Shown here: positions 104 through 61,952 of the stretch, piece by piece | Layout of the letters: every line of letters begins with the position of its first letter | How positions within the stretch are numbered: position 1 is the first letter of the stretch | DNA from: Parafrankia irregularis | GTDB lineage: Bacteria; Actinomycetota; Actinomycetes; Frankiales; Frankiaceae | Length of the DNA stretch: 64,000 bases | NCBI RefSeq assembly: GCF_001536285.1 | Contig: NZ_FAOZ01000025.1 | Span: 1 to 64,000 of the forward strand | Direction: 5' to 3' | The notes under the pieces: model-generated | What the model was told of the DNA's origin: nothing | Databases searched by the model: none | Seen by the model: the letters and a program-made list of their open reading frames with translations, nothing else | Made by a program: the position numbers and the translations under genes

Positions 104-1276
104 ATGAAACTCAGCAGCGAACGCATCCTGACCACGCACACCGGCAGCCTGCCCCGACCGGCCGGGTTGGCCGAGCTGATCCGGGCCCGGGAACAGGAGA
201 CCCTCTCAGTCGCGGACGCCGAGCACCTGCCCGACCGGATCGCGGACGCAGTTAGCGTGGTCGTCGACCATCAGGCCCGGGTCGGGCTGGATGTGATCAG
301 CGACGGCGAGATGAGCAAGATCGGGTACGCCACCTACGTCAAGGAACGCCTCACCGGTTTCGACGTGGACGTTGCCGTGCCTGAGTGCGGCGGCCTGTCG
401 ATTGCCGATCTGGACGACTACCCTGGCATGGCCGAACGTTCCCTGGCCGGCTTGGAGACCGCGACACCCACCTGTACCGGCCCGATCAGCTACACCGGCA
501 GCGCCTTGCTCGATACCGACCTGGCCAGCTTCGCAGCCGGCGTCGGTTCAATCTCAGCAGGATCGGGTCAGCCGGCCGAGCGGTTCATGAATGCCGCTTC
601 ACCTGGAGTGATCGCACTCTATCTTCCGAACCAGTTCTATGCCGGCCTGGATGAGTACCTGTTCGCGTTGGCCGAAGCGATGAGGGTCGAGTACGAGGCG
701 ATCACCGCAGCCGGGCTGGTCCTGCAGATCGACGCCCCGGATCTGGCGATGGGTCGGCACATCCAGTACACGCACCTGTCCGAGCAGGGATTCCTGGACC
801 GGCTGCGCGTACACGTTGAGGCGGTCAACCACGCGCTCCGCAATATCGATCCGGCGAGGGTGCGGGTGCACCTGTGCTGGGGTAACTACCAGGGCCCGCA
901 CCACAAGGACGTCGGCCTGGACGTCATCCTGGACACGATCCTTCAGCTTAAGGCCGACGGACTGGTGTTCGAGGCCGCCAATCACCGCCACGCACATGAA
1001 TGGCAGGTGCTGGCCGACGCGAAGATCCCCGAGCAGAAGGTCCTCATCCCGGGTGTCATCGACACCTCCAGCGTCTACATCGAACACCCCGAACTCATCG
1101 CCCAGCGCATCACCCGCTTCGCCGACATCGTCGGCCGCGAGCGCGTCATCCCCGGAACCGACTGCGGCTTCGCGTCCTTCGCTACCTTCCTCGCCGTCGA
1201 CGAGAGCCTGGCCTGGGCGAAACTCGAATCCCTCACCGCCGGCGCTCGACTGGCCAGCGATCGGCTGTGGTCATGA
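104..1276 (+). CDS. MetE-II-like cobalamin-independent methyltransferase
   Basis: 390-residue protein of the UROD/MetE-like TIM-barrel family, corresponding to the C-terminal catalytic half of cobalamin-independent methionine synthase. The N-terminus has the family signature TTHTGSLPRP (residues 10-19). The four zinc ligands of the family are in place: His256 and Cys258 (VHLCWG), Glu290 (LVFEAA) and Cys354 (PGTDCGF). A zinc-activated thiol is therefore the expected methyl or alkyl acceptor. Stand-alone proteins of this size also include epoxyalkane:CoM transferases, so methionine synthesis is not certain. The start has a GGAGGA ribosome site. The stop overlaps the start of the following 2OG oxygenase (ATGA), implying co-translation and a shared, probably catabolic, role. 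Confidence 0.85.
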   Translation: MKLSSERILTTHTGSLPRPAGLAELIRAREQETLSVADAEHLPDRIADAVSVVVDHQARVGLDVISDGEMSKIGYATYVKERLTGFDVDVAVPECGGLSIADLDDYPGMAERSLAGLETATPTCTGPISYTGSALLDTDLASFAAGVGSISAGSGQPAERFMNAASPGVIALYLPNQFYAGLDEYLFALAEAMRVEYEAITAAGLVLQIDAPDLAMGRHIQYTHLSEQGFLDRLRVHVEAVNHALRNIDPARVRVHLCWGNYQGPHHKDVGLDVILDTILQLKADGLVFEAANHRHAHEWQVLADAKIPEQKVLIPGVIDTSSVYIEHPELIAQRITRFADIVGRERVIPGTDCGFASFATFLAVDESLAWAKLESLTAGARLASDRLWS

Positions 1277-2328
1277 CCCGCACCACCCCGACCCACAGCA
1301 CGACCGAGCGCTACGCGGCGCTGCCGGTGCTCGACCTGCGTGAGTTCGACCCTGGCGCTGATCCCGCGGTGCGCGGCCTGTTCCTTGAGCGGCTGCGCGA
1401 GACCTGCCATGACGTGGGTTTCCTCTACCTGGTGGGGCACGGCGTCGATGACACCCTGTTCCGGGAGGTCGAGGAGGTCACCCGAGCGTTCTTCGCTCTG
1501 CCCGAAGCTGATCGAATGTCGATCGCGATGACCCGGTCGCCACACTTCCGTGGCTACACCCCACTGGGTGGTGAACTCACGAACGGTCGGGCCGACCGGC
1601 GCGAGGAGATCGACCTCGGCCCGGAACGCCCCACCCCGGCACTGACGGTTGCCGATCCGCCATGGCGGCGGCTACTCGGTCCGAACCAGTGGCCAGTCGC
1701 AATACCGCAGTTCCGCGCCACGATGTTCACCTGGCACGAGCAGATGGACACCGTCGGGCACCGCCTGCTGCGTGCCCTCGCGACTAGCCTCGGTCAACCT
1801 GACGACCAGTTCGACAGCTGGGTCGACCCAGACCCTGAGGCCACCATCAAAGCCATCCACTATCCTCCATCCGGACCTGGCGGCGATCAGCAAGGCGTTG
1901 GCACCCACCGCGACTTCGGGCTGCTCACCTTCGTCCTGCAAGACGCCGTCGGTGGACTGCAGGTGGAGCGCGACGGGTGCTTCCTCGACGTCCCGCACCT
2001 GCCCGGCGCCCTGGTCGTCAATCTCGGCGAAATGCTGCAGCTCGCCACCCACGGCTACCTCAAGGCCACCGTCCACCGCGTCATCAGCCCGCCCGCTGGC
2101 ATGCAGCGATTCTCGGTCATCTACTTCTTCAACCCGCGCCTGGACGCCACCCTCACTCCCATCGACCTGCCGGCCGAACTCGCTACCCAGGCAACGGGCG
2201 GACACAGTGCTGACCCGGACAACCCCATCCTCGCCACCTACGGCGAGAACATCCTCAAGGTGCGGCTGCGCGCCCACGCCGACGTCGCGCAACTCCACCA
2301 CGCAGATTTGCTCGCCGCCGAGAACTGA
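1273..2328 (+). CDS. isopenicillin N synthase-like 2OG-Fe(II) oxygenase
   Basis: 351-residue cytosolic oxygenase. The N-terminal DIOX_N domain covers roughly residues 15-130 and the 2OG-Fe(II) double-stranded beta-helix roughly 185-290. Iron ligands are His212 and Asp214 (GTHRDFG) and His268 (ATVHRV). The RxS pair that binds 2-oxoglutarate is Arg279 and Ser281 (RFSVIYFF). The start is taken at the ATG overlapping the previous stop as ATGA; a longer frame upstream is only the shadow of the methyltransferase. The substrate is unknown. Coupling to a MetE-like methyltransferase suggests oxidation of the same substrate or of its demethylated product, which is inference. Confidence 0.85.
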   Translation: MTRTTPTHSTTERYAALPVLDLREFDPGADPAVRGLFLERLRETCHDVGFLYLVGHGVDDTLFREVEEVTRAFFALPEADRMSIAMTRSPHFRGYTPLGGELTNGRADRREEIDLGPERPTPALTVADPPWRRLLGPNQWPVAIPQFRATMFTWHEQMDTVGHRLLRALATSLGQPDDQFDSWVDPDPEATIKAIHYPPSGPGGDQQGVGTHRDFGLLTFVLQDAVGGLQVERDGCFLDVPHLPGALVVNLGEMLQLATHGYLKATVHRVISPPAGMQRFSVIYFFNPRLDATLTPIDLPAELATQATGGHSADPDNPILATYGENILKVRLRAHADVAQLHHADLLAAEN

Positions 2329-2459
2329 CCAGATCCACCGGCGCATCGCGACGCGCCTTCGGGCTCGCCCACGCGCCCCGTCGCCCATGCGCCTCACGGC
2401 CCCCACGGCCCCCACGGCGCCCAGTCATCCCCCGGACAGAAAGGAATTTGAACGCCATG

Positions 2460-3701
2460 TCAAGCCGCTGCGGTAGCGGGCTGTGGCACGGTCGGTGTGA
2501 ACGTCCGGCCGTCGCGCAGCAGCGCCCACAGGACGTCGACCATGCGGCGAGCGAGAGCGAGCAGTGCTTGGATGTGGATCAGCCGCTCGTGGCGTTTGCG
2601 GTCGTAGAAGGTCCTCGACGGCCCTGGTACGCGGATGCTGGACAGGGCCGCCATGAAGAACACCCGCCGCAGCCTGCGGTTGTAACGCTTGGGGCGGCGC
2701 AGGTTCCCGGTGACGCGGCCGGAGTCACGGGCGACGGGCACGAGTCCCGCGTAGGAGGCCAGACCTCCGGCGGTCGTGAACCCGGCAAGGCTGCCACCGG
2801 TGACCACGACGAACTCCGCACCGAGGATCGGCCCGATCCCGGGCAGCGGCTCGATGATCTCCGCTTTGGGATGGATCCGGAACCGGCTGGTGATCAGCTT
2901 GTCGTTGTCCTTGATCTGCCGATCGAGATCCAGCAGGTAGGAAGCCAGCCGTGCGACGAGCACAGCGGTAGTGACCTCACCGGGAAGCCGCACCGTCTGC
3001 GCCTCGGCGGCCACTGCCGAGGCCGCCATGGCGAGGATGCCCTTGGGCCAGACGCCGTTCTCCCGCAGGAAAGCCGCGACGCCGCCCTCGCCTGCCGTGC
3101 GGATCGCCTGCGGGGTCTGGAAACCGGTGAGCAGGACCAACGCGGAACGGGTCGAGTAGTCGAAGGCGCGTTCCAGCGCAGGGAAGATGCCAGTCAGCAG
3201 GTCGCGGAGCCGGTTCACGCCGCGCGCCCAGTCCGCCATCAGATCCTCGCGGTGTGCGGTCAGACGGGGCAGCTCGACCACCAGATCGTCGGTGACGGTC
3301 ACAGGGGTCAGATCAGCGCGCATCCGGGCGGTTTCGGCGATCACACGGGCGTCCTTGGCGTCGGACTTGCTCTCCCCGCGGAACACCCCGGCCATCCGGT
3401 TGACGACCCGGCCGGGCACGTAGACCACCTGCTGCCCACTCGCCACCAGCACCGCTGTCAGCAGCGCCGCGGCGCTGCCGGTCAGATCGATCGCCCAGCG
3501 CACCTCGCCGGCGACCTGCCCGGCGCGGGTGACGAGCTGCTCGATCACGGCCTGGTCGTTGGCCACCTTCCGCGAGAACACCACCTTGCCGGCCGCTTCC
3601 ATCGCGCACGCGTGATGCGTCGCCTTGCCCACATCCACACCGACCCAGACCAGCGGCCGATCCACTACGCCCGTACTCCTGTTATCGCAGGTCAACCCCA
3701 C
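2460..3701 (-). CDS. IS110-family transposase
   Basis: 413-residue transposase. The N-terminal DEDD (RuvC-like) domain starts at WVGVDVGKATHHACAM, and the C-terminal IS116/IS110/IS902 domain contains PLPGIGPILGAEFVVV and GLASYAGLVPVARDSG. It lies on the minus strand between two plus-strand operons and so separates the methyltransferase/oxygenase pair from the transporter and PhnYZ-like genes. IS110 elements lack clear inverted repeats, and I could not define the element ends. The gene looks intact and full length. Confidence 0.92.
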   Translation of the reverse strand: MGLTCDNRSTGVVDRPLVWVGVDVGKATHHACAMEAAGKVVFSRKVANDQAVIEQLVTRAGQVAGEVRWAIDLTGSAAALLTAVLVASGQQVVYVPGRVVNRMAGVFRGESKSDAKDARVIAETARMRADLTPVTVTDDLVVELPRLTAHREDLMADWARGVNRLRDLLTGIFPALERAFDYSTRSALVLLTGFQTPQAIRTAGEGGVAAFLRENGVWPKGILAMAASAVAAEAQTVRLPGEVTTAVLVARLASYLLDLDRQIKDNDKLITSRFRIHPKAEIIEPLPGIGPILGAEFVVVTGGSLAGFTTAGGLASYAGLVPVARDSGRVTGNLRRPKRYNRRLRRVFFMAALSSIRVPGPSRTFYDRKRHERLIHIQALLALARRMVDVLWALLRDGRTFTPTVPQPATAAA

Positions 3702-3893
3702 GGACAGCCCCGCCAGCAGGTCCCTTAACAGCGACGGTCCGCATCAGATCTGAATCAGCGGCCAGGGCGTCCAGAGCGACGGGGCGGCCATTCCTTCCGA
3801 GCCGCCGTGCGGCAGACACGCCACAAGCCACACCCCATCACCCCGGGCATCCGGGGCACCACCCCGAACAACATCGACCTTAGGGACCTCGCC

Positions 3894-4559
3894 ATGACCG
3901 TTGATGCCCCGCCCACATCGGTGGCAACGCATGTACCGCTACAGACCGAGGCCGAGGCCCCGCCCGACCCGCCGGTCACGAACCCGCTGCGAGGCAACCC
4001 CGGCATCGTCGGCATCCCGATTACCATCGCTGGCGCGCTCGGACTCGGCTTTGTCGACGCCGGCTACGTGCCCGCCGAGGCCGCCGCCGCCGGCATCCCG
4101 ACCATCCTCGCCGCAACCTCGATCGGGCTGCTACTGGCTACCGTCTGGGCCGCCGTGCTCGGGCAAAACGCATCGGCCAGCCTGTTCGCCGTCTTCTTCG
4201 GCTTCTACGCCAGCTACGCCGCGCTCGCCCTCGGACTCACGCACAACTGGTACGGCATCCCCGATGACCAGATCGTGCACACGCAAGCCATCTGGCTGAT
4301 CTGCTGGCTAGTCACCATTGCCATGCTCACTCTGGTCACCATACGGCTGCCTTGGAGCTTCACCCTACTCCTCGGCCTGGTCGACGTCGCCCTCCTCCTG
4401 CTGCTCGTCGGCACCCTGGATGCCAACACCACCCTTGTCCATCTCGGCGGGTACGTGGTCTTCGCCTTCGTCGCCGTCGCCGTCTACCTGTATGTCGATC
4501 TTATGTGGAGCGAGACCGGTGGTCGCGGACTTCCTCTCGGTAGACCTCTCGTATCCTGA
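3894..4559 (+). CDS. GPR1/FUN34/YaaH (SatP-type) carboxylate transporter
   Basis: 221-residue integral membrane protein of the acetate/succinate uptake (AceTr) family. A hydrophilic N-tail of about 38 residues precedes the family motif region NPLRGNPGIVGIP. Six hydrophobic helices follow, with the conserved HNWYGIP loop and the run SFTLLLGLVDVALLLLLVGT. It closely resembles the transporter at 58870-59535 in the same window, including the conserved LWLICWLVT-type helix and the ETGG...PLG C-terminus. It lies 93 bases before the PhyH-type oxygenase on the same strand and probably imports or exports a small carboxylate tied to that pathway. Confidence 0.85.
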   Translation: MTVDAPPTSVATHVPLQTEAEAPPDPPVTNPLRGNPGIVGIPITIAGALGLGFVDAGYVPAEAAAAGIPTILAATSIGLLLATVWAAVLGQNASASLFAVFFGFYASYAALALGLTHNWYGIPDDQIVHTQAIWLICWLVTIAMLTLVTIRLPWSFTLLLGLVDVALLLLLVGTLDANTTLVHLGGYVVFAFVAVAVYLYVDLMWSETGGRGLPLGRPLVS

Positions 4560-4652
4560 CTCAATCGCTGTAACAAAGTTGCATCGCGAAGTCTATTCAT
4601 GATATATGAGTTTCATAAACGTTACGGTTTACCGGCCCTTTGGAGGATCACG

Positions 4653-5432
4653 TTGCTGGTCGACCCTCTTGACCTCGCGACTTGGCGGGGCAGCGGCGTT
4701 CTTCTCATGGGCGGCTTCCTCGGCCCGGAGCGCCTGCGGGAGGTCAGGCGCTGGGTCGATGAGATCGAGGCTTTGCCGGGCGGCGAGGATGGTCTGCTGC
4801 AGTATGACGAGACCACCGGGGACGGGTTCTCGGTGCGCTGCCGCACCGAGAACATCGTGCCCTGCCATGACGGTATGCGTGCCCTGCTCACCCGGGGCGC
4901 GCTGATCGACATTGCCAGCACGTTGCTCGGCGAGCCCGCCGTCCTCTACAAAGAAAAGATCAACTACAAGCAATCCGGCGGTGCCGGGTTCGCCCCGCAC
5001 CAGGACGCGCCCGCCTACCCCTTTGTCCGGTGCACCATCACCTGCATGATCGCTATCGACGATTCCACCACCGACAACGGCTGTCTGGACATCGTCGAAG
5101 GCATGCACCACGACCCCCTGCCTACCGATGATGTCGGCTGCATCCCCGCTTATCTCGCCGAGATCCTCCCATGGAAATCCGTCCCAGTCCGCGCTGGGTC
5201 GCTGCTCTGGTTCAACTGGTACGTTCCTCACCGCTCCGGAGCCAACATCTCACCCCATCGTCGCCGGGCCATCTACCTCACCTACAACGCAGCCTCCGAC
5301 GGTGACCATCGCCACCACTACTACCAGGAAAAGCGGCACCGCCTCGCCGCCGGCACCGACCGAATCAGCCTCATCGGCCACTTCACCGGCGACAGCCACG
5401 TCAGCACCCAGGACACCCAGGAATCTGTATGA
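4653..5432 (+). CDS. PhyH-type Fe(II)/2OG oxygenase, PhnY/TmpA-like
   Basis: About 259 residues, phytanoyl-CoA dioxygenase family. Iron ligands are His116 and Asp118 (FAPHQDAPAYP) and the distal His193 (VPHRSGAN); an arginine near residue 205 (RRAIYLTYN) would hold 2-oxoglutarate. KEKINYK before the HxD motif and LTYNAASDGDH after the second His resemble, from memory, oxygenases partnered with PhnZ-like HD enzymes. These hydroxylate an aminophosphonate at the carbon next to phosphorus. TTG 4653 is preferred because GGAGG lies six bases before it; an in-frame ATG at 4599 has no ribosome site. The stop overlaps the next start as ATGA. Confidence 0.85.
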   Translation: MLVDPLDLATWRGSGVLLMGGFLGPERLREVRRWVDEIEALPGGEDGLLQYDETTGDGFSVRCRTENIVPCHDGMRALLTRGALIDIASTLLGEPAVLYKEKINYKQSGGAGFAPHQDAPAYPFVRCTITCMIAIDDSTTDNGCLDIVEGMHHDPLPTDDVGCIPAYLAEILPWKSVPVRAGSLLWFNWYVPHRSGANISPHRRRAIYLTYNAASDGDHRHHYYQEKRHRLAAGTDRISLIGHFTGDSHVSTQDTQESV

Positions 5433-6028
5433 ATACCGACAGGCTCCTCCACGGCACCTTCACTGACGCGGACGAGTTCTGCGACGAACTGTTCGCCTAC
5501 CTCACCGCCGTTGGCCAAAGTCAATACGACGAAACCGTCACCCAACTCGAACACGCCCGGCAAACCGCCGCTCTCGCCGAAGCCGACGGCTACGACCAGC
5601 CTGCACAGGTCGCCGCGCTGCTGCACGACATCGGCCATCTCCTCCTCGACGAACACGACGCGCACCGCGACTTCCTCGTCGAAGACCTCCATCACGAAAT
5701 TGTCGGAGCACGTTACCTGACCCGATGGTTCGGCCCCGATCTCGGCGCTCCGGCGGCGCTGCACGTCAAAGCCAAGCGCTATCTCGTGGCCACCGACCCT
5801 GCCTACGCCAACAGCCTGTCCGAGGCCTCTACCCGAAGCCTACGCGTCCAAGGTGGCCCGATGACTGGTAAAGAAGTCGATGACTTCCTTCGCCTGCAAC
5901 ATGCCGACCTCGCCCTCGCGTTGCGTCGGTGGGATGACAACGCCAAGCGAGTCAACGTCGCAGTACCGGAACTTGGCCATTGGCGTCCGGCTGTCTGCCG
6001 GTGCGTAAGAGCCTGTTTGGAATCTTGA
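5429..6028 (+). CDS. HD-domain mixed-valent diiron oxygenase, PhnZ/TmpB-like
   Basis: 199 residues, phosphonate-type HD family. Recalled PhnZ metal ligands (His34, His58, Asp59, His80, His104, Asp161) map here with a constant +8 offset: His42 (QLEHARQ), His66-Asp67 (LLHDIGH), His88, His112 (LHVKAKRYL) and Asp169 (RRWDDNAK). The family block LRVQGGPMTGKEV is present. PhnZ cleaves the C-P bond of the hydroxylated phosphonate made by its 2OG partner, releasing phosphate. PhnZ Glu27 matches Glu35, but the position of PhnZ Tyr24 is Gln32, with a Tyr one residue later, so the substrate may differ. The last ten or so codons come from an adjoining IS5-type end; the core is complete. Confidence 0.85.
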   Translation: MNTDRLLHGTFTDADEFCDELFAYLTAVGQSQYDETVTQLEHARQTAALAEADGYDQPAQVAALLHDIGHLLLDEHDAHRDFLVEDLHHEIVGARYLTRWFGPDLGAPAALHVKAKRYLVATDPAYANSLSEASTRSLRVQGGPMTGKEVDDFLRLQHADLALALRRWDDNAKRVNVAVPELGHWRPAVCRCVRACLES

Positions 6029-6270
6029 TCTATTTCACGACCTCGACCGTGGTGGCGAGGACGTCTTTCGCCCACCCGACGAGGGTGCCGGAAAGCCCGC
6101 GTCGGTGAACAGGTGCCGGCAGTGGCGGTGATCGAAGTAGAGGTCGACCAGCAGCTGGCGGGCGCCGCGGCGGTCCTGGACGCTGGCCGGGACGACGAGC
6201 ACGACCAGCAGGAGCCCGAGGGTGTCGGTGATGACGAACCGCTTACGGCAGTCTCACTGCCCCGCTGGTG
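6020..6270 (-). pseudogene. IS5-type transposase remnant
   Basis: Read on the minus strand, the stretch encodes KRFVITDTLGLLLVVLVV, then VQDR, then LLVDLYFDHRHCRHLF, typical of the central DDE region of IS5-family transposases (DxxGLLL...VQDR). A single-base loss after TDAGF shifts the frame, and a TAG follows. Only the middle of the gene remains. The right part of the element overlaps the 3' end of the PhnZ-like gene. Confidence 0.6.
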
Positions 6271-7241: not shown

Positions 7242-7914
7242 CTCCTTCGATCCTCAGCATCTCACGGCGCAAACAAGATCTGCGCCAGATCGTGTGAACA
7301 TGAAAACGGAAGGTGAGCGTTATGTGATGGCGGCCTTACTTTCTGAAATGCTGTGCGGGAGATGGAGGGTGCGGCGCTCCTTCGTAGCGAGCACCGTGAG
7401 GCCCTTCGGAGTCGCCCTGCGGGGGGAGGCTCCAAACCACCCAGCGGTGCCTTAGCTGAAGACTGTGGTATTGAACGGTCTGGGAAAAGCCCGGGTGAAC
7501 CCGGGCAGGTAGGGATCGGTAAGATGAGCGAAAGGGTGTAAGCCTACTGCCGTCTGAAGCGTCGCAACTGATTTAGATGACGTCGAAACCAGGGTCTGAT
7601 CTGCATCCTGGGATGAGCTCGGGGGATACCCGTTTACTGCCCGGGTGGCGTCCGGCGTAGAGGTGGCATCAGACCGATCTGCTGCTCTCGTACGGAACAT
7701 GTGAACGCGTGCGGCGAAAGTGACTACGGCCGGGTTGGTCGGAGGCGAGAAGGGACGCGCCAAGCGGCGGAATCCGCAAGGAGCAGGTACCGGTTGCGAA
7801 GCGCGCGGGCGGACCTTCCCGAGTAGCTATGAAAGCCGGATTTTCGCGGTCGGGTTGGAGCCAAGGGGAAGGGCTGCGTGGAACACAAGTGCGCGCAACC
7901 GTCTTAAGGGGAGG

Positions 7915-9092
7915 ATGCGTGTGAGTGGACCAGCATCGCGGGGCAAGTCGTTCAAGGTCCCCAAACAGCTGGTGTGGGATGCCTGGCTGAAAGTGAAGGA
8001 AAACGGTGGGGCACCTGGGGTCGACGGTGTGACGGTTGAGCAGTTCGAGGCGAACGTGAAAGACCGCCTGTATGTGCTGTGGAACCGCATGTCGTCGGGG
8101 TCGTACTTCCCCGGGCCTGTCCGGGCGATGGAGATTCCAAAGAACGACGGGAAAGGAGGGGTAAGGGTCCTAGGTATTCCCAACGTGGCAGATCGCGTAG
8201 CGCAGACGGTGCTGAAGCTGGCCCTGGAGCCGACGGTCGAGCCGGTGTTCCACCGGAACTCGTTCGGATACAGACCAGGCCGCTCGCAGCGCCAAGCACT
8301 CGAGGTCTGCCGCAAGCGGTGCTGGTCGCATGACTGGGTCGTCGACCTGGACGTGCGGAAATTCTTCGACACAGTGCCATGGGAACAGTTGCTCAAGGCG
8401 GTGGCGTACCACACGGACCAGAAATGGGTCCTGATCTACGTGGAACGCTGCCTGAAAGCGCCGATGAAGCATGCCGACGGAACCCTGGAAGAAAGAACCA
8501 TGGGCACGGTTCAGGGTGGTCCATTCTCCCCGCTAGCGGCCAACATCTATCTGCACTGGGGCCTTGACGCCTGGATGGCGCGCGAGTTCCCGGCCGTTCC
8601 TTTCGAGCGGTGGGCGGACGATGTTGTGTTTCACTGTGTAAGCCTGGAGCAGGCCAAGGAAGTACGGGACGCGGTGGCGGCAAGGCTGGTCGAAGTCGGG
8701 TTAGAAGCTCACCCCGACAAGACCCGGATCGTGTACTGCAAGGACAGCAACCGTGGCGGCGACCATGAAAACACGTCGTTCACGTTCCTGTCCTACACCT
8801 TCCGGCCACGAGTAGCGTGGAACAAGACCCAGAAGAAGCGCTTCACCAGCTTCATCCCGGGTGCCGCGCCGGATCGGGTGACTTCGTTCAGCCGCGAAAT
8901 GCACGACCTGAGACTGCACAGGCGAACGAACCTGACACTGGATCAACTCGCCGCAAACATCAACCCGAGAGTGGCGGGCTGGATGGCGTATTTCACCATG
9001 TTCTATCCGAGCGTGGTGCTCCCCGTCGGCAGGCGCATTGACAGCCATCTCGTGCGCTGGGCCAGGAAGAAGTACAAACGACTGACAGGAAG
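7915..9092 (+). pseudogene. ltrA: group II intron reverse transcriptase/maturase, N-terminal part
   Basis: About 392 residues of the intron-encoded protein. RT motifs follow in order: GGAPGVDGVTVEQFE, FGYRPGRSQRQALE, VVDLDVRKFFDTVPW, GTVQGGPFSPLAANIYL and the catalytic box FERWADDVVFH near residue 240. The box is WADD, not the usual YADD. HPDKTRIVYC and the maturase segment VAGWMAYFTMFYPS come next. The frame is cut after KKYKRLTGS by the IS21-type insertion; the missing C-terminus resumes at 11858. ATG 7915 follows GGGGAGG; GTG 7921 is an equally good start. Confidence 0.85.
9084..9092 (+). repeat. target-site duplication, left copy (GACAGGAAG)
   Basis: GACAGGAAG is repeated at 11858-11866, directly flanking the IS21-type element. 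Joining the two flanks at one copy restores an uninterrupted RT reading frame. Confidence 0.85.
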
Positions 9093-9313
9093 TGGCTTCG
9101 GACATGGCATCGAGCGCCAGATGTACGCGGCATCGAGCACCATTCGATCTTACGGTGAAGATCGAATGTCGGTGAGTTCGAGCGCCACCCGCGGGCCGGG
9201 GTGCCGGTGGTGCTGGCGTGGCCCGGGCTGTGGCATCTGTGTGGTGCGCCCGGTCCCGACCGCGACGCGGCGGTGGGAGTATCGGCGGTACTACTCGCCG
9301 TAAAGAGGCTGCT

Positions 9314-10945
9314 ATGGCGTCGCAGGCCGACCGGGTCGCGTTGTTCGCGGCGATTCGCCGTGATCTCCGTGATGGAATGTCGAGCCGGGCGATCGCGCAG
9401 AAGTATCGGGTGAGCCGGCACACGGTGGCCGCGGCCGCGGCGTCGGCGTGGCCGGAGCCACGGAAGAAACCACCGCCGCGTGGAAGCCGGCTGGACGAGT
9501 ACGCGGCTGTGATCGATGAGATGTTGCGCGCGGATCTGGACGCACCCCGCAAGCAGCGGCACACGGCGACGCGTATCACGGATCGACTGGTGGCGGAGCA
9601 TGGGGCGGTCGGAGTGACCTATCGGATGGTGCGGCTCTACGTCTCCGAGCGACGCCCACAGATCTGGGCGGAGGCAGGACGTGGACCGCAGCGTGGTTTC
9701 ATCATCCAATCACACCAGCCCGGAATGGAAGCGGAGGTCGATTTCGGGGAGGTCGCGATCCGGCTCCGCGGAGAGCTGGTGAAGTGCGCGTTGTTCTCAC
9801 TCCGGATGTCGTATTCAGGAAAATCGGTTCACCGGGTTTTCTCCTCGGCCGGGCAGGAAGCTTTCCTGGAAGGGCATGTCCACGCGTTCGACGTGCTCGG
9901 TGGAGTACCGCGAGGGAAGATCCGGTACGACAACCTCAAGGCGGCGGTCGCGACCGTGCTCGGCCCGGACCGGGGCCGGGTCGAGGCGGCGCGGTGGACC
10001 GCGTTCCGGTCGCACTACGGCGTCGAGGCGTTCTACTGCCGGCCCGGACTCGACGGGGCCCACGAGAAAGGCGGCGTCGAGGGCGACATCGGCTGGTTCC
10101 GCCGCAACCACCTGGTCCCGGTGCCCGAGGTCGATTCCCTCGCCGAACTGAACGGGATGATCGACCGCTGGGACACCGAGGACGACGGCCGGCGGATCGG
10201 AGCCAGAGCGCGCACCGTCGCTGACGACTTCGCCACCGAGGCGCCGCTGCTGGCCCCGCTACCCGACGAACGGTTCCCCACGGCGCTGGTCGCCACGGTC
10301 CGGGTCGACCGCTACGCCCAGGTCATGGTCCGCACGAACCGCTACTCGGTGCCCGCCCGGCTGATCGGCCGGCGGTTACGCGTCGAGGCCGGCGCCTCCG
10401 AGATCGTCATCTACGACGGCCGGGCCGAGGTCGCCCGCCACGAACGGCTGTCCGGCCGGATGTCGACACGGCTCGAACTCGACCACTACCTGGAGATCCT
10501 GCTCCGCAAACCCGGTGCTTTGCCCGGCGCGACGGTCCTCGAACAGGCCCGCGCCGCGGGGAAGTTCACCCCGGTCCACGACGCCTGGTGGGCCGCCGCC
10601 CGCAAGACCCACGGCGATGCCGAGGGCACCCGCGCGTTGATCGGGGTACTCCTGCTCGGCCGACACCTGCCCGCCGAGCACCTCGTCGCCGGCCTGGCCA
10701 CCGCGCTACGCGCTGGCGCACTGACCGTCGACGCGGTCGCGCTGGAAGCACGCAAGGCCGCCGAAGCCGACCAGCATCCCCCAGCCGACGAACCCCCGAC
10801 CGCCACCGGTCCGAAGGCCACCGTCAGTTCCCTGACCGTCCGCCGGCTCACCGCGCTGCCGTCGGACACCCGGCCCCTGCCCTCCGTCGCCGCCTACGAC
10901 CAGCTGCTGCGCCATCCACGTCCCGGAGCAGGAGGAACCTCATGA
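9314..10945 (+). CDS. istA: IS21-family transposase IstA
   Basis: 543-residue transposase. An N-terminal helix-turn-helix (SSRAIAQKYRVSRHTVAAAA, about residues 23-42) precedes the DDE integrase core: EAEVDFGEV near 137, KIRYDNLKAAV near 200 and GAHEKGGVEGDIGWFRRN near 250. The C-terminal Mu-transposase-like domain contains RTNRYSVPARL. The start is ATG 9314, just inside the left end; the longer upstream frame lies in the terminal repeats. IstA binds the ends and performs strand transfer, with IstB as ATP-dependent partner. Confidence 0.92.
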   Translation: MASQADRVALFAAIRRDLRDGMSSRAIAQKYRVSRHTVAAAAASAWPEPRKKPPPRGSRLDEYAAVIDEMLRADLDAPRKQRHTATRITDRLVAEHGAVGVTYRMVRLYVSERRPQIWAEAGRGPQRGFIIQSHQPGMEAEVDFGEVAIRLRGELVKCALFSLRMSYSGKSVHRVFSSAGQEAFLEGHVHAFDVLGGVPRGKIRYDNLKAAVATVLGPDRGRVEAARWTAFRSHYGVEAFYCRPGLDGAHEKGGVEGDIGWFRRNHLVPVPEVDSLAELNGMIDRWDTEDDGRRIGARARTVADDFATEAPLLAPLPDERFPTALVATVRVDRYAQVMVRTNRYSVPARLIGRRLRVEAGASEIVIYDGRAEVARHERLSGRMSTRLELDHYLEILLRKPGALPGATVLEQARAAGKFTPVHDAWWAAARKTHGDAEGTRALIGVLLLGRHLPAEHLVAGLATALRAGALTVDAVALEARKAAEADQHPPADEPPTATGPKATVSSLTVRRLTALPSDTRPLPSVAAYDQLLRHPRPGAGGTS

Positions 10946-11742
10946 CCGCCACCCGCCCCCGTGGCATGACCGACCAGGCCGCCGAAGCCGCGATCGACCA
11001 GGCCTGCCGCCTGCTACGCCTACCCACGATCCGCCGCCAGTTCCCCGACCTCACCCAGGCCGCGACCCGCGAACAGATGACCTACCTGGGATTCCTCGCG
11101 GAACTCCTCCTCGCTGAATGCGACGACCGTGACCGGCGCCGCTCCGACCGGCAGATCAAAGCCGCCGGGTTCCCCCGCACGAAAGCACTGCGCGAGTTCG
11201 ACTACACCGCCAACCCCCACGTCGATCCCGCCACCATCCACACCCTCGCCGCCTGCGACTGGGTCACCAAAGGCCAGCCCCTCTGCCTCATCGGAGATTC
11301 CGGAACCGGGAAATCCCATCTCCTCATCGCGCTCGGCACCGAAGCCGCGATGAAAGGCCACCGTGTCCGCTACACCCTCGCGACGAAACTCGTGAACGAA
11401 CTCGTCGAGGCCGCCGACGAGAAACAACTCACCAAAACCATCGCCCGCTACGGCCGCGTCGATCTTCTCTGCATCGACGAACTCGGCTACATGGAACTCG
11501 ACCGCCACGGCGCCGAACTCCTCTTCCAGGTCCTCACCGAACGCGAAGAGAAGAACAGCGTCGCGATCGCCTCCAACGAAAGCTTCGGCGGCTGGACAAA
11601 AACCTTCACCGACCCCCGCCTCTGCGCCGCGATCGTCGACCGGCTCACCTTCGGCGGCACCATCATCGAGACCGGCACCCAGTCCTACCGGCTCGCCCAC
11701 ACCCGCGCCCGCGCCACCCCCAACAGCCCACCCCAGAACTGA
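10942..11742 (+). CDS. istB: IS21-family helper ATPase IstB
   Basis: 266-residue AAA+ ATPase related to DnaC. Walker A is CLIGDSGTGKSHLLIAL (about residues 114-130). Walker B is VDLLCIDELGYM near 180, followed by the sensor motif SVAIASNESFGGW. It helps IstA choose target DNA and activates strand transfer. The start overlaps the istA stop (ATGA), with GGAGGAA just upstream. Full length and apparently functional. Confidence 0.93.
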   Translation: MTATRPRGMTDQAAEAAIDQACRLLRLPTIRRQFPDLTQAATREQMTYLGFLAELLLAECDDRDRRRSDRQIKAAGFPRTKALREFDYTANPHVDPATIHTLAACDWVTKGQPLCLIGDSGTGKSHLLIALGTEAAMKGHRVRYTLATKLVNELVEAADEKQLTKTIARYGRVDLLCIDELGYMELDRHGAELLFQVLTEREEKNSVAIASNESFGGWTKTFTDPRLCAAIVDRLTFGGTIIETGTQSYRLAHTRARATPNSPPQN

Positions 11743-56107: not shown

Positions 56108-58234
56108 ATGCGGCAAGTAAGCGTTGACATCGGCGGGACGTTCACCGACTGCTTTCTCGTCTACGACGACGCCTACGTCGAGGCGAAGTCGTTAACCACA
56201 CACCATCATCTCGCTTCCGGCTTCATGGACGCGCTGGCGCAGGCGTGCACGCAGATCGAGCTCGATGTGAAGGCGGTGCTCTCGTCCGTCGACGCGGTGC
56301 GCTACGCCACCACGCTGGGGACGAACGCGCTCATCGAGCGCAGCGGACCGTCCGTCGGGATCCTCACCACCGCCGGCTTCGAATCGACTGTGCCGCTGAT
56401 GCGGGCCCGCGGCTACGGCGACGGGCTGACCGCGGCCGAGCAGTCCGACCTGCCTGCTGCGGACCGGCCCGCGCCGCTGGTTCCGGTGACCCGCATCGCA
56501 GGAATCCAGGAACGCATTGACTACGCCGGCAAGGTAGTGCTCTCCGTCGACGAGGACGACGTCCGCAGCCAGGTGCGGCGGCTGGTGGATGAGGGTGCGC
56601 AGGCGTTCGTGGTCGCGCTAACCAACGCGGTGGTCAACCCTGCCCACGAAAAGGAAGTTGAGCGCATCGTCCTCGATGAGTATCCCACTCATCTGCTCGG
56701 TGCGATCCCGATCGTGCTGTCGCACCGGGTCAGCGGACGCAAGGGCGAGTACGCCCGCACCATGTCGTCGATCATCGACGCCTACCTGCACAACCAGATG
56801 TACCACGGCCTGGCGTCCCTGGAGATCGAGTTGCGGCGTAACGGCTACACCAAGCCAATGCTGCTGGTGCACAACACCGGGGGCATGGCTCAGCTGAACT
56901 CGACCGCCTCGCTGCAGACCATCCACTCCGGACCCGTCGCCGGGCTGGAGGCCACCCACTACCTGTCGAAGACCTACGACCAACCCAACCTCATCGCCAC
57001 CGACATGGGGGGCACCAGCTTCGACATCGGCCTGGTGACCTCCGACGGCGTGAAGTTCTACGACTTCAACCCGGTCATCGATCGTTGGCTCGTATCGACT
57101 CCGATGACCTACCTGCACACCCTCGGCGCCGGCGGCGGCTCCATCGCCCGCTACGACCGTCTGTGGAGCGCCATCGAAGTGGGCCCGGAAAGCGCCGGCT
57201 CCGACCCGGGCCCGGCCTGTTACGGACGGGGAGGGCGGCTCCCGACTACGACGGATACCAACCTGGTGCTGGGTTACCTCGATGCGGACAACTACGCGGG
57301 CGGCACGATCAAGCTCAGCCTGCGCCGGGCGCAGCGCGCCATCGAGGAGCATATCTGCAAGCCCACCGGTATGAGCCTGGTCGAGGCGGCAAAGGCGATC
57401 AAGCGCAAGGTGGACAGCAACATGGCCAATGCGATCTTCAAGGAGGTCGCGGTCAAGGGCTACAATCCGAAGAACTTCGTCGCGCTCAGCTACGGCGGCG
57501 GTGGTCCGCTGCACGCCTGTGGGTATGCCGCGCAGCTGGGCATTAAGCACGTGCTTGTCCCCCCGTTCAGCTCGGTTTTCTCGGCGCTGGGCGCGGGCAA
57601 CATGAACCAGTTGCACATTCACGAGCGTTCGCTATACATGATGGTCTATGACGCCACCGGCCGTCGGCTCCTGGACGACTACCAGGTCTTCAACGACACC
57701 GTGGCGGAACTTGCCGCGAAGGGCCGCGACGACCTGCTCCGCCAGGGCGTCGATCCCGCCGACATCCAGTCGCGCGTGGAGGTCGACCTGCGCTACGGCA
57801 ACCAGCTTGCCCAGATCGGTGTCGTATGTCCGTTTGAGCGGCTCACCTCGCACCGGGACGTGGTCGAGTTGCTGGACCTGTTCAGTAACCTCTACGCCCA
57901 GCGGTTTGGCGAAGGCAGCCAAGCGCCCGAGGCAGGTGTCCGGATCAACGTCATCCGAGTGGTGAGCTATGTCGATCACGACAAGTTCGCCATGCGGCCC
58001 ACCCAGGCCGAGCCTCGTCCTGCACCGAGCCCCGCCCGGTGGCGGGAGTGCTACTACCCAGGCATCGATGGAGCGGTCAAGACCGCCGTCTACGACGTTG
58101 CCTGCCTTGAAGAGGGCCATGTCGTGGAGGGTCCCGCCTTGGTGGAAACCCCGCGCACGACCTACCTCGCCGAACCGGGCTGGCAGATCACGATCGGGCG
58201 TACCGGCTCCGCGGTGCTCACCAGGACCATCTGA
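56108..58234 (+). CDS. HyuA-type carboxylase subunit, ApcC-like
   Basis: 708-residue ASKHA-fold subunit. N-terminal loop QVSVDIGGTFTDCFLVYDD, second loop IATDMGGTSFDIGLVTSDG near residue 300, HTLGAGGGSIARYDRL and the family block ALSYGGGGPLHACGYAAQLG. Larger than the first HyuA-like subunit, which matches the unequal ApcA/ApcC pair (reported sizes about 70 and 87 kDa); this suggests two different ATP-dependent steps. GGAGGG lies before the ATG. Third gene of the operon. Confidence 0.88.
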   Translation: MRQVSVDIGGTFTDCFLVYDDAYVEAKSLTTHHHLASGFMDALAQACTQIELDVKAVLSSVDAVRYATTLGTNALIERSGPSVGILTTAGFESTVPLMRARGYGDGLTAAEQSDLPAADRPAPLVPVTRIAGIQERIDYAGKVVLSVDEDDVRSQVRRLVDEGAQAFVVALTNAVVNPAHEKEVERIVLDEYPTHLLGAIPIVLSHRVSGRKGEYARTMSSIIDAYLHNQMYHGLASLEIELRRNGYTKPMLLVHNTGGMAQLNSTASLQTIHSGPVAGLEATHYLSKTYDQPNLIATDMGGTSFDIGLVTSDGVKFYDFNPVIDRWLVSTPMTYLHTLGAGGGSIARYDRLWSAIEVGPESAGSDPGPACYGRGGRLPTTTDTNLVLGYLDADNYAGGTIKLSLRRAQRAIEEHICKPTGMSLVEAAKAIKRKVDSNMANAIFKEVAVKGYNPKNFVALSYGGGGPLHACGYAAQLGIKHVLVPPFSSVFSALGAGNMNQLHIHERSLYMMVYDATGRRLLDDYQVFNDTVAELAAKGRDDLLRQGVDPADIQSRVEVDLRYGNQLAQIGVVCPFERLTSHRDVVELLDLFSNLYAQRFGEGSQAPEAGVRINVIRVVSYVDHDKFAMRPTQAEPRPAPSPARWRECYYPGIDGAVKTAVYDVACLEEGHVVEGPALVETPRTTYLAEPGWQITIGRTGSAVLTRTI

Positions 58235-58869
58235 ACAAGGCACCGAAGGCGGGGCCGACTGACCCCCGGCCGTCCGGACGACATCGGCTCTCATATGCAC
58301 GTCCGATGTGCACACCGTCAGGGGTAACCTTCCCGCTCCGAAGCTCGCGGTCTCGGCCACGAGTCGGTCGGTGTAATCCTCGACCTGGGCTCCACCGACA
58401 CCAATGAAGCGTCGGAGGACGGGTAGTGATCGGATCCGTCGCGCCGCACTGTCAATGTTCTCCCTGTCAGCAGGGTTTCAGTCCCAATGTCAGGGAATGC
58501 TCGGCGCATACAATTCACCGCTCAAGGCGATGTCAACATGGCGAAGTCATTTCCAGTCAATGGCGCGCCCGCCGGGCTCACTTCATTCTTTTGGTGTGGC
58601 CCGCGCTAGCTAGAGAAGCCGCTTACCCTCTTCTGGCTCGTGGGCGACCCACGGCCGCATCCCTGCCGTAATCTTCGAACACCCCTAGCCGTCCAGCAGG
58701 ACACGACGGCAAGCAACGCCTGCTGGGCCAGGAGGGCCGGGTACCGCCTCACGGGTATTGGGCGGCGTGGCCCCGTCATGGCACGCCCGGCCCTCCTCCG
58801 CCGCTCATATCCGCAGTACGCACGAGCAACCAGCTCGAAGCGGTCCGCCCGGTTAAGGAGGGTGATCTC
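58235..58869. other. gap without a gene inside the carboxylase cluster
   Basis: 635 bp between the ApcC-like gene and the transporter. No frame looks real and no RNA gene or repeat is recognised. The strong AAGGAGGG ribosome site of the transporter lies at its end (58855-58862). The length suggests a second promoter. Confidence 0.4.
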
Positions 58870-59535
58870 ATTACCACCGACGATTCCATTCTTTCGACCG
58901 ATTCACCGCCGTTGCCAAACGAGGCCGGGGCATTACCCCTTCAGCCGGCTGCCAACCTGGTGCGCGGCAACCCAAGCGCAATCGGCATCCCCAGCTTCAT
59001 AGCCGGGGCCGTCGGACTCGGGCTGGTCGACACCGGCTGGATCGAGCCCGCAGCGACTGGTGCCGCCATCCCTGTCATCGTGACCGCGACCTCGCTCGGT
59101 CTTCTGATCGCCGCGGTCTGGGCGGCGGCGCTCGGGCAGAGCGCGCCAGCCAGCCTGTTCGCGGTGTTCAGCGGGTTTTTCGGCAGCTACGCCGCGTTCG
59201 TCCTAGGCCTCGGCCACAACTGGTACAACATCCCGGCCGACCAGGTGACCAGGACCACCGAGCTGTGGCTGATCTGCTGGCTGGTCACCGTGGTCGTGCT
59301 CACCGTGGCACTCCTACGACTGCCCAGCAGCTTCACCCTGCTGCTCGGGCTCGTTGACGTCGCGCTGCTGCTGCTACTGCTCGGCACCATCAACACCAAT
59401 GCGGCCCTGACCCACGCCGGCGGCTACTTCGTGTTCGCCGTCGTCGCCGTGGCGACCTACCTGTACGTCGGCATCTTGTTCGCCGAGACCGGTGGGAAGG
59501 GGTTCCCGCTCGGCAAGCCGATCATCTCCGGATAG
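58870..59535 (+). CDS. GPR1/FUN34/YaaH (SatP-type) transporter, probable AUU start
   Basis: 221-residue six-helix membrane protein, paralogous to the transporter at 3894-4559: PLQPAANLVRGNPSAIGIP, LGHNWYNIPADQV, LWLICWLVTVVVLT, SFTLLLGLVDVALLLLLLGT and ETGGKGFPLGKPI. No ATG or GTG exists in frame near the expected start. AUU at 58870 lies eight bases after AGGAGG, and from there the N-terminus (TTDDSILSTDSP) parallels the paralog's TVDAPPTSV; a TTG at 58912 is the alternative. Probably carries acetate or another small carboxylate for the ketone pathway. Confidence 0.82.
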   Translation: MTTDDSILSTDSPPLPNEAGALPLQPAANLVRGNPSAIGIPSFIAGAVGLGLVDTGWIEPAATGAAIPVIVTATSLGLLIAAVWAAALGQSAPASLFAVFSGFFGSYAAFVLGLGHNWYNIPADQVTRTTELWLICWLVTVVVLTVALLRLPSSFTLLLGLVDVALLLLLLGTINTNAALTHAGGYFVFAVVAVATYLYVGILFAETGGKGFPLGKPIISG

Positions 59536-59687
59536 CACCCCGTGATCCGACTTCCGTAGGTGCCCACGCTGACGCGTAAACGAGGAAGGCGTCATCACAC
59601 CCCTCATCGGTTTTGCGTAGCCCATGCGGGGCCTGGGAAGCCGCTCGCCATCCTTGCCAGAAACGTCCCACCGGAAGGTGTATCGTT

Positions 59688-61919
59688 ATGAGCCAAGCTG
59701 AAAATTCTGACGACAAGTCGCTCGTTGAGAGGTTCCTCGAAGACAACGTCCTGTTCCTCGGGCCCGATCCCGAGATCATGAAAAACCACAAGCTCGCTCC
59801 CGAGTCACCGCGCGAGACACAGGCGCTGGCGCAGTTCACGGACCCTGAAGTGGTCAACCTGGTGCGGAACAAGCTGCAGACCGCATGTAACGAGTCGTTC
59901 GAGATGGTAGAGCAGATGGGTGCGGCTCCGGGAGCGAAGTGGGGCGACCTGATCTCCGGGATATGGACGTCCTCGGGTGACCTGGCCCTGTCCAGCATGG
60001 GCGGTGTACTGCTGTTCTCGGTGCTCACGCAGCACCCTGTCAAGTTCATCGTCAAGTACTGGGCCGACGAGCCGACGGTCGGTATCCACGAGGGCGACAT
60101 CTTCATGCACAATGACGCCCGCTACGGCAATGCCCACAACACCGATCAGAGTCTCCTCATTCCAGTCTTCCACGAGGGGCAGCTGATCTGCTTTACCGGC
60201 GCGGTCGTGCATGAGGGTGAGAACGGAGCCACCGAACCCGGCGGTATGCCCTCGGCGGCGGAGTCCCCGTTCGACGAGGGTCTGAAGATCCCGCCGCTCA
60301 AGGTGGGCGAGAACTACACGTTCCGCCGCGACATCATGACATTCCTACAGAACTCGGTGCGCGAACCGAAGTTGCAGCTGGAGGGCATGAAGGCTAAGCT
60401 TTATGCGGCCATGCGGATGAAGGACCGGGTTCTGGATGCGATCGCCGAATATGGTGTCGACCCGGTGATCGCCACGTTGCGGCGCACCCTGACCGACACC
60501 GCCGACGAGGTTCGCCGCAGGCTCCGCACGTGGCCGGATGGCACCGTGCGGCAGAACGTCTTCCCGGACGGGACGCTGCGGGAGAACTGCCTGGTCAAGA
60601 TCAGGCTGGCGATGACAAAGAAGGACGACGAGCTGATCCTGGATTTCCGTGGCTCATCACCGGAGTTCCTTAACCGGGCCAATAACACGATCCTTTCGTC
60701 GATGAAGGGCATGCTGGCCCAGGAGTTCCTTACGTTCGTGTGGCCGGACCTGCCGCGGAACCAGGCGGTGTTCGAGCCGATGACCGTCGTCACCGACCCA
60801 GGGTCGGCGCTGAACTGTTCCCCGGATGCGCCGAACGCGCAGTGCATGATGACGTTCTTCCCTTCCTTCACGGCGGCCCAGTTGGCGGTGCCGAAATTCC
60901 TCTACAGCGCGGGTGAACGTTCTACGGACATCGTCGCCGGCTGGTACAATATGATCGTCACGCTCATCTACGGGGGCATCAACCAGCATGGCGAGCTGGT
61001 CGGTAATGTGTGTGCCGACCTCAATGGAATGGGCGGGGCCGCGCGGTCCAACCGGGACGGTGAGCACGCGGTCGCCCCGATCTTCGCGCCCATGGCCGAC
61101 ATAGGCGAGCAGGAGCTCATCGAGGAAGAAGTCCCGATCCTGAAGATCGTGCCGAACAGGGTGATGCGGGATAACCAGGGCTTTGGCAAGTTCCGCGGCG
61201 GCCAGGGCTACCAGCAGATCGCCACCGCCAAGGACAGCGCCATGTGGGGGTTCATGGTGTGCAGCATCGGCTCGAAGTTCCCCAGCTCGCACGGCATCTT
61301 CGGTGGTTACGGCCCCGGCACCTTCCCATTGTGCAAGATCAAGAATGTTGACATGTTCAAGGTGATGGACGACCAGCGCGAACTGCTGCGCTACACCATC
61401 GAGGAACTGATGAACGACCGTCCGTTCCCCGACGCGACCTACTCGACACACCACATGGGCCTGCAGTTCGAACTCGCCGAACGAGGTGAGCTGTACATGC
61501 TCACCCAGGGAGCCGGAGGTGGCTACGGTGACGTGCTCGAACGCGCCCCTGAGGCGGTGGCCGCCGACTACCGCGACGGCCTAGTGTCCCTCAGCACCGC
61601 GCGCGACATCTACCAGGTGGTGCTCAACCCGGACACTGCCGCGGTCGATGCCGAGGCTACCTCAGCGGCCAGGAACGCCGAGCGGGCTGCTCGGCTGAAG
61701 CGGGGCAAGCCGTTTGCGGAGTTCGTCAAGGACTGGGAGACCGAGACGCCTCCAGCCGATGTGCCGTTCTTCGGTTCCTGGGGTGATCCTCGGTTGCTTT
61801 TCCGAGGTACTCCGGAGGACACCTGCCCTGCGGACGCGATCGTGCCGGTGATGATGCCCAACCCGAAGGATGTGCGGATCGCGGAGCTGGAGGCCAAGCT
61901 CGCGCAGCTGCAGGGCTGA
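59688..61919 (+). CDS. HyuB-type carboxylase subunit, ApcD / acetone carboxylase alpha-like
   Basis: 743-residue hydantoinase B family protein. EGDIFMHNDARYGNAHNTDQ, PVFHEGQLICFTGAVVHEGE, NMIVTLIYGGINQHGELVGN, NRVMRDNQGFGKFRGGQGYQ and YMLTQGAGGGYGDVLERAPE are family blocks. The HxxD-type metal and substrate site is expected in the first. In ketone carboxylases this subunit carries the carboxyl transfer site. The start at ATG 59688 follows GGAAGG. Its order after the two HyuA-like and small subunits mirrors apcABCD, apart from the intervening transporter. Confidence 0.88.
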   Translation: MSQAENSDDKSLVERFLEDNVLFLGPDPEIMKNHKLAPESPRETQALAQFTDPEVVNLVRNKLQTACNESFEMVEQMGAAPGAKWGDLISGIWTSSGDLALSSMGGVLLFSVLTQHPVKFIVKYWADEPTVGIHEGDIFMHNDARYGNAHNTDQSLLIPVFHEGQLICFTGAVVHEGENGATEPGGMPSAAESPFDEGLKIPPLKVGENYTFRRDIMTFLQNSVREPKLQLEGMKAKLYAAMRMKDRVLDAIAEYGVDPVIATLRRTLTDTADEVRRRLRTWPDGTVRQNVFPDGTLRENCLVKIRLAMTKKDDELILDFRGSSPEFLNRANNTILSSMKGMLAQEFLTFVWPDLPRNQAVFEPMTVVTDPGSALNCSPDAPNAQCMMTFFPSFTAAQLAVPKFLYSAGERSTDIVAGWYNMIVTLIYGGINQHGELVGNVCADLNGMGGAARSNRDGEHAVAPIFAPMADIGEQELIEEEVPILKIVPNRVMRDNQGFGKFRGGQGYQQIATAKDSAMWGFMVCSIGSKFPSSHGIFGGYGPGTFPLCKIKNVDMFKVMDDQRELLRYTIEELMNDRPFPDATYSTHHMGLQFELAERGELYMLTQGAGGGYGDVLERAPEAVAADYRDGLVSLSTARDIYQVVLNPDTAAVDAEATSAARNAERAARLKRGKPFAEFVKDWETETPPADVPFFGSWGDPRLLFRGTPEDTCPADAIVPVMMPNPKDVRIAELEAKLAQLQG

Positions 61920-61952
61920 CGGTGGGGTACTGACGAGGATGGCGGGAGAACG

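Follow-up and report, generated by a model that had tools for sequence, protein, structure and literature searches.

A PhnYZ-Like Oxygenase Pair of Parafrankia irregularis Ends a Conserved Gene Cassette Probably Serving Phosphonate Breakdown

Introduction

Oxidative cleavage of the C–P bond is known in four substrate versions, according to one review (PMC10574752). The closest described systems are PhnY/PhnZ of HF130_AEPn_1 (2-aminoethylphosphonate), TmpA/TmpB of Leisingera caerulea (trimethylaminoethylphosphonate), and PhnY*/PhnZ1 of Gimesia maris, the last of which is a pair of a PhyH-type and an HD-domain oxygenase. A second review (PMC8177086) describes H...HD...H...H...D as the ligand motif of PhnZ-type enzymes, and a YxxE loop common to PhnZ and TmpB whose tyrosine lies on Fe2 before substrate binding. 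Here we analyzed 64,000 nucleotides (hereafter, the window) counted from base 1 of contig C25 in the 9.5-Mb genome of Parafrankia irregularis, in which an earlier note based on the letters alone had singled out a transporter gene followed by a PhyH and an HD gene. We found that this PhyH–HD pair ends a conserved larger cassette, a point that the earlier note had missed. At a probability of about 0.72, sequence comparison, structural modeling, and analogy suggest that the pair is a PhnYZ-like oxidative C–P cleaving module within a larger cassette for a short phosphonate. The mechanism class proposed earlier holds, an argument built on the substrate gate fails, and what is new is the cassette.

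The Cassette and Its Distribution

The earlier note had delimited a unit at 3894–6028. Its three genes, for a SatP-type transporter, a PhyH protein, and an HD protein, are borne out by the scores for PF01184, PF05721, and PF01966, and the ATGA overlap that it had read between the last two lies at 5429–5432. The extent of the unit did not stand, because a MetE-like gene and an isopenicillin N synthase (IPNS)-like gene upstream also belong to it. The features of the locus are as follows.

104–1276, plus strand: MetE-like protein (cobalamin-independent methionine synthase II family), 390 aa; PF01717, 65.4 bits (cut-off 21)
1273–2328, plus strand: IPNS/EFE-type 2-oxoglutarate (2OG)-Fe(II) oxygenase, 351 aa; PF14226 and PF03171
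about 2445–3889, minus strand: IS110-family insertion with transposase at 2460–3701; NF033542, 232.5 bits (cut-off 140)
3894–4559, plus strand: SatP/YaaH (GPR1/FUN34) family membrane transporter, 221 aa; PF01184, 58.8 bits (cut-off 25)
4653–5432, plus strand: PhyH-type 2OG-Fe(II) oxygenase (PhnY-like); PF05721, 87 bits (cut-off 22)
5429–6028, plus strand: HD-domain diiron oxygenase (PhnZ/TmpB-like), 199 aa; PF01966, 26.8 bits (cut-off 22)

The full cassette occurred in two of 72,556 plasmid records, those of Rhodococcus sp. NJ-530 and Dietzia sp. DQ12-45-1b (L033 and L034), where a MurR/RpiR gene and a gene for a phosphoesterase–propeller protein lie on one strand and the MetE-like, IPNS-like, YaaH, PhyH, and HD genes on the other. 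A sister copy (L035), in a single-contig 5.4-Mb genome of the same family as the window, keeps the cassette order without the IS110 insertion; its IPNS-like protein lacks residues 117–188, a loss of 72 residues. The divergent phosphoesterase–propeller gene accompanies the cassette in L033, L034, and L035, and in all four copies, including that of the window, the MetE-like and IPNS-like genes share a four-base overlap, which reads ATGA in the window. In Rhodospirillaceae bacterium R-7 (L046), the PhyH and HD genes are found with MurR on the opposite strand, a MetE-like gene, a stand-alone phosphoesterase gene, and then an ABC importer. The MetE-like protein of the window is 67, 66, and 56% identical to those of L033, L034, and L046, respectively; in L033 and L034 the IPNS-like protein is 65% and SatP 55–59% identical. 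Between the plasmid copies, the ratio of nonsynonymous to synonymous substitution rates (dN/dS) was 0.05–0.18 for six genes, values that are rough because dS exceeded 1 in four of them; HD was saturated and was not computed.

The MetE-like protein matches MetE at the family level, but of the domains of MetE it retains the C-terminal catalytic one alone. Its H256, C258, E290, and C354, the presumed zinc ligands, are invariant in six sequences. The IPNS-like protein, whose nearest solved sequence is 9ovh (E 1.5e-61), has the HxD motif at H212, and its distal His, picked by eye, is probably H268. The L046 phosphoesterase has 2dxl, 2zo9, and Rv0805 as its nearest solved sequences, of which the first two are GpdQ; the match to GpdQ-type phosphodiesterases is at the family level, and the actinobacterial form differs by its fusion to a pyrroloquinoline quinone (PQQ)-type propeller.

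At E ≤ 1e-100, the class to which the window belongs yielded the MetE-like protein in 4 genomes out of 345, two of which (neither the window nor L035) had no cassette gene within about 1.5 kb of it; for the class of L046 the figure was 43 out of 337. Among 37 distinct MetE places, which represent only part of those from the class of L046, 34 had no cassette gene in flanks of about 1.5 kb or less, the other three being the window, L035, and L046; a general rule that MetE stands beside PhyH–HD in Alphaproteobacteria is therefore unsupported. The order to which Nocardia higoensis (L044) belongs had HD proteins at E ≤ 1e-30 in 6 genomes out of 397; three of these were covered by stretches of 13–20 kb, and in none of the three was the cassette seen. 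No description of such a cassette was found among the titles and abstract openings listed from open-licence literature. Unrelated genes surround one relative of MetE, in Ruegeria (L125), and one of IPNS, in Tsukamurella (L126). Rhodococcus pyridinivorans pGZ01 carries only a broken phosphoesterase–propeller gene between IS6 and IS3 transposases (L175, 9001–10839), a relic which suggests that plasmids carry the cassette about and that it decays on them.

Family and Fold of the HD Protein

Alignment to the solved PhnZ sequence placed H42, H66, D67, H112, and D169 of the HD protein opposite H34, H58, D59, H104, and D161 of PhnZ, at an offset of +8. The fourth ligand is H89 rather than H88, matching PhnZ H80 at +9, and H89 is invariant in 43 homologues. 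Thus, the six ligands noted earlier are all present, and only the constancy of the offset fell. H70, K116, Q141, and R166 are also kept; their equivalents presumably line the PhnZ pocket. The protein passed the cut-off of TIGR03276 (phosphonate degradation HD-domain oxygenase; 233.4 vs 214.6 bits), a broad family that includes HD proteins in C–P lyase clusters and has no single substrate. It remained under the equivalog cut-offs for PhnZ1 (NF052439, 193.5 of 300 bits) and TmpB (NF049941, 132.6 of 300 bits). An AlphaFold model built from 43 sequences (mean predicted local distance difference test score, 92.3) matched PhnZ with a Z score of 25.2, a root mean square deviation (rmsd) of 1.9, and 179 aligned residues at 32% identity (32–34% across the structural alignment), and TmpB with a Z score of 24.9, an rmsd of 1.7, and 176 aligned residues at 37% identity. 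The next family, MIOX, reached a Z score of only 10.7. Judging from sequence and model together, this protein belongs to the PhnZ/TmpB-type oxygenases.

The HD gene resembles that of L035 only up to position 6001 of the window, inside its last codons, indicating that the last eight or so residues derive from other DNA. The DNA replacing the HD tail cannot be called a repeated element on this evidence, positions 6000–6120 being single-copy in the P. irregularis genome.

Three other HD loci may be mentioned. Those on Variovorax and Nostoc plasmids (L124 and L177) are TIGR03276-named oxygenases within C–P lyase operons that have neither a PhyH nor a TauD partner, and in Novosphingobium (L178, 2623–5537) the HD oxygenase gene is divergent from a phosphocholine-specific phospholipase C gene.

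The PhyH Protein

The PhyH open reading frame opens at ATG 4599, but the start is probably TTG 4653, since in the sister copy L035 a stop interrupts the longer reading; a GGAGG lies at 4642–4646, ahead of this TTG. Numbered from there, H116, D118, and H193, the presumed iron triad, are invariant together with Arg204/205 in 14 sequences. Both proteins accordingly possess complete iron sites, as the earlier note had stated. The best-scoring characterized model for the PhyH protein was the methylphosphonate hydroxylase NF052437, at 233.1 bits and under the cut-off of 500.

Phylogenetic Placement

The HD protein fell in an 11-member clade (support 98/92) in which every member adjoins a PhyH gene. 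The clade comprises the window, L035, the Rhodococcus and Dietzia plasmids, N. higoensis (L044), Mycobacterium (L045), L036 (a genome of the class of the window), the actinobacterial L016, L037, and L070, and Rhodospirillaceae bacterium R-7. TmpB fell inside a TauD-partnered branch (97/88) and PhnZ, as a partial sequence, grouped with Bacteroidota rows (95/87); neither joined this clade. The HD protein thus lies outside the PhnZ and TmpB branches. Phosphonate genes adjoin members of the clade: in L044 a binding protein and a permease pass TIGR01098 (phosphate/phosphite/phosphonate binding protein) and PhnE, and in L036 a PhnX-like protein passes TIGR03351.

Across 48 places in 44 genomes, among which the clade was represented without L033, L034, and L016, eight of the nine best PhnZ1 profile scores came from this clade. 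No Gimesia-type PhnZ1 exceeded the cut-off in these 44 genomes or in a further search of 102 genomes from the order to which a planctomycete locus belongs, and the Gimesia methylphosphonate enzyme is absent from the tree because no cut-off-passing PhnZ1 was found.

The Gate Loop

The gate loop of the HD protein is Y33-D-E35, one residue shorter than YxxE. As the earlier note had read, and as alignment confirmed, Glu27 of PhnZ is kept as Glu35, Gln32 takes the position of Tyr24 three residues before it, and a tyrosine (Tyr33) follows one residue later, two before the Glu. The note had taken this alteration as a sign of a special substrate. Loops were scored by the spacing between the tyrosine and the first ligand histidine (short, 9; long, 10) in 121 rows that include the two solved references and were sampled with the HD protein and its relatives as queries. 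Before the tree and loop counts we removed duplicates (L003, L011–L015, L018, and L019; eight in all), L001 and L002, whose genes are those of the window and L035, any second hits, and three divergent loci (L031, L032, and L183); the later L184–L195 and L200–L208 were not added. The short YxE loop was present in all 28 PhyH-partnered homologues. Among TauD-partnered ones, 26 of 30 had the long loop and 4 the short; where neither partner was nearby, that is, where no PhyH or TauD hidden Markov model matched at E ≤ 1e-8 in the flank covered (short for some loci), the counts were 43 long, 16 short, and 2 other of 61.

A gate mutation private to this protein was therefore rejected; by these counts, the short loop is a mark of the subfamily. 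Because it marks the whole subfamily, the loop is no evidence for a special substrate of the HD protein. In L045 the loop Glu is replaced by Asp. We do not claim co-evolution of loop length and partner, which is not proven because the sample is clustered by descent and holds one or two phylogenetically independent pairs; PhnZ itself, whose partner we presume to be of the PhyH type, has YxxE. In practice, the YxxE motif, given as marking PhnZ and TmpB (PMC8177086), would miss the PhyH-partnered YxE group.

The Transporter

A SatP protein in place of a phosphonate ABC transporter had been taken earlier to imply a different substrate. The SatP protein is there, its score above the PF01184 gathering score of the SatP/AceTr transporters, but the deduction is only half right, since the slot varies within the 11-member clade (surveyed without L037, L016, and L070). 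L044 has in this slot the binding protein and permease named above with an ATPase read by eye, L036 and L045 have major facilitator superfamily (MFS) proteins nearest to phosphate:H+ symporters (under the cut-off), and L046 has a urea/Liv-type ABC importer (under the cut-off). Because the same slot in the clade holds other importers, SatP is favored as the importer of the pathway substrate, and it more likely replaces a phosphonate importer than excludes a phosphonate substrate. A second SatP-family gene (58912–59532), 62% identical to the one at 3894–4559, stands between genes for hydantoinase A and hydantoinase B at 56108–62783 of the window.

State of the Cassette in P. irregularis

The IS110 insertion that parts the IPNS and SatP genes is missing in L035, as judged by blastn of its junctions; a search for inverted repeats around it gave nothing useful. 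The phosphoesterase–propeller gene of this genome lies on contig C31 (L198, 8420–13677), where its frame is broken once near the start and the neighboring MurR/RpiR gene is split by a transposase. Bases 1–80 of the window recur on C31 at the junction (L198 8420–8499, 98.75%) and at L198 4816–4961, and we read this repeat as the probable terminus of an insertion sequence lying between the two cassette halves. The cassette is thus damaged by insertions here and may be poorly expressed. These features, the replaced HD tail, and the internal IPNS loss in L035 lend some weight to the view that, within a region rich in mobile elements, these are decaying remnants with no present function. We hold that view to be somewhat improbable, since the frames of MetE, IPNS, SatP, PhyH, and HD are all open in the window and dN/dS against L035 was 0.17–0.29 for MetE, the C-terminal part of IPNS, SatP, PhyH, and HD residues 1–193; the short N-terminal part of IPNS, with 13 changes, gave 1.19. 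Decay here would, moreover, be no argument against function in the plasmid hosts.

Proposed Function and Alternatives

The proposal of a PhnYZ-like C–P cleaving module builds on observed family membership, fold, iron ligands, gene order, conservation, and selection, and the cleavage chemistry is carried over from PhnYZ, TmpAB, and the Gimesia pair. In the proposed pathway, the SatP-family transporter would import a small phosphonate or its ester, and the upstream metallophosphoesterase would probably free the phosphonate from the ester. The PhyH protein, using Fe(II) and 2OG, would hydroxylate the carbon next to phosphorus, and the HD protein, with a mixed-valent diiron center and O2, would then split the C–P bond, releasing phosphate and leaving a carboxylate. 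The group left over from the ester, in the simplest case methyl or another alkyl, might be trimmed or recycled by the zinc MetE-like protein and the IPNS-like oxygenase, and the MurR/RpiR protein would regulate the cassette. Oxidative C–P cleavage as the mechanism class, which the earlier note had also foreseen, is supported by the family model, the fold, the tree, and the phosphonate genes beside relatives. As to the substrate class, we consider short alkyl- or hydroxyalkylphosphonates, methylphosphonate-like ones included, the likeliest; a methylphosphonate-type substrate in particular is a guess to which we would give low odds. The conserved phosphoesterase and MetE-like genes, overlooked earlier, are a stronger hint of an unusual substrate than the transporter. 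It is conceivable, although we would bet against it, that the cassette encodes the whole of a mobile catabolic pathway for an undescribed phosphonate ester, combining the phosphoesterase–propeller, the MetE-like alkyltransferase with the IPNS-type oxygenase, and the short-loop PhnYZ-like pair. If true, this would link MetE-type chemistry with C–P breakdown, conserved from an alphaproteobacterium to actinobacterial plasmids, a link that we did not meet in the literature searched. A further substrate is predicted by the standing of this well-supported group as a branch apart, with a gate loop and a regulator type of its own and with phosphoesterase and MetE-like genes conserved beside it. The five-to-seven-gene cassette on sequenced plasmids is a defined and directly testable set.

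Several observations weigh against this proposal. Both partners widely miss the equivalog cut-offs of the characterized phosphonate models (NF052437, 233 of 500; NF052439, 193.5 of 300; NF049941, 132.6 of 300), and L044 fails the PhnD equivalog TIGR03431 (184 of 261). The HD protein of L206, 61% identical and with the short loop, has no PhyH match in 19.9 kb by tblastn with the window and L046 PhyH queries, and therefore PhyH hydroxylation is not universal among close relatives; some of them may use a 1-hydroxyphosphonate made by other means. L046 lacks the loop Glu (YDP), SatP had no match among solved (PDB) sequences at E ≤ 1, and no MurR match was found in L035. In P. irregularis itself, as described above, MurR is split, the phosphoesterase frame is broken, and insertions apparently lie on both sides of the MetE–IPNS block. 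The L206 HD gene (10664–11401) adjoins, by eye, class II aldolase-like, flavin adenine dinucleotide (FAD) amine oxidase-like, PfkB-like sugar kinase, and MFS genes, which is possibly another phosphonate route.

One alternative is that the pair is simply an actinobacterial counterpart of Gimesia PhnY*/PhnZ1, turning methylphosphonate into formate and phosphate, with SatP moving small acids in or out and the MetE and IPNS genes as unrelated neighbors. The best-scoring characterized models for both proteins are indeed the methylphosphonate hydroxylase and the hydroxymethylphosphonate dioxygenase, most of the top PhnZ1 scores come from the clade of the HD protein, and formate is excreted in the Prochlorococcus methylphosphonate route (PMC6581173). 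The scores, however, lie roughly between one half and two thirds of the equivalog thresholds; the Gimesia protein is unplaced, as noted above; and the present pair comes with MetE-like, IPNS-like, phosphoesterase, MurR, and SatP genes, of which MetE and phosphoesterase recur beside PhyH–HD in two phyla, which is hard to explain for mere neighbors. We regard this alternative as unlikely.

Degradation of 2-aminoethylphosphonate or an N-methylated form, as by PhnYZ or TmpAB, appears distinctly less likely. Glu35 is the equivalent of the amine-binding Glu27/Glu33 (PMC8177086), and the fold and six ligands, as well as K116, R166, and Q141, agree with PhnZ, as do the fold and ligands with TmpB, itself part of an oxygenase pair in one operon. 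But the Glu is not diagnostic, being shared by most homologues whether their loop is long or short, PhnZ and TmpB have YxxE instead of YxE and stand on separate branches, and the partners at three TmpB-like plasmid loci are annotated as TauD/TfdA or gamma-butyrobetaine dioxygenases, not PhyH. Finally, biosynthesis or modification of a phosphonate natural product, in whose gene clusters two 2OG oxygenases and a MetE-like protein would also fit, is very improbable, since the annotations around L033 and L034 name neither a phosphoenolpyruvate mutase nor any other biosynthetic gene (about 9 kb on each side; no model search was made) and relatives adjoin phosphonate-type ABC and PhnX-like genes.

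Directly after the cassette, at 7720–11742 of the window, a group II intron maturase gene (7720–9303) is followed by IS21 istA/istB, forming a stretch rich in mobile elements.

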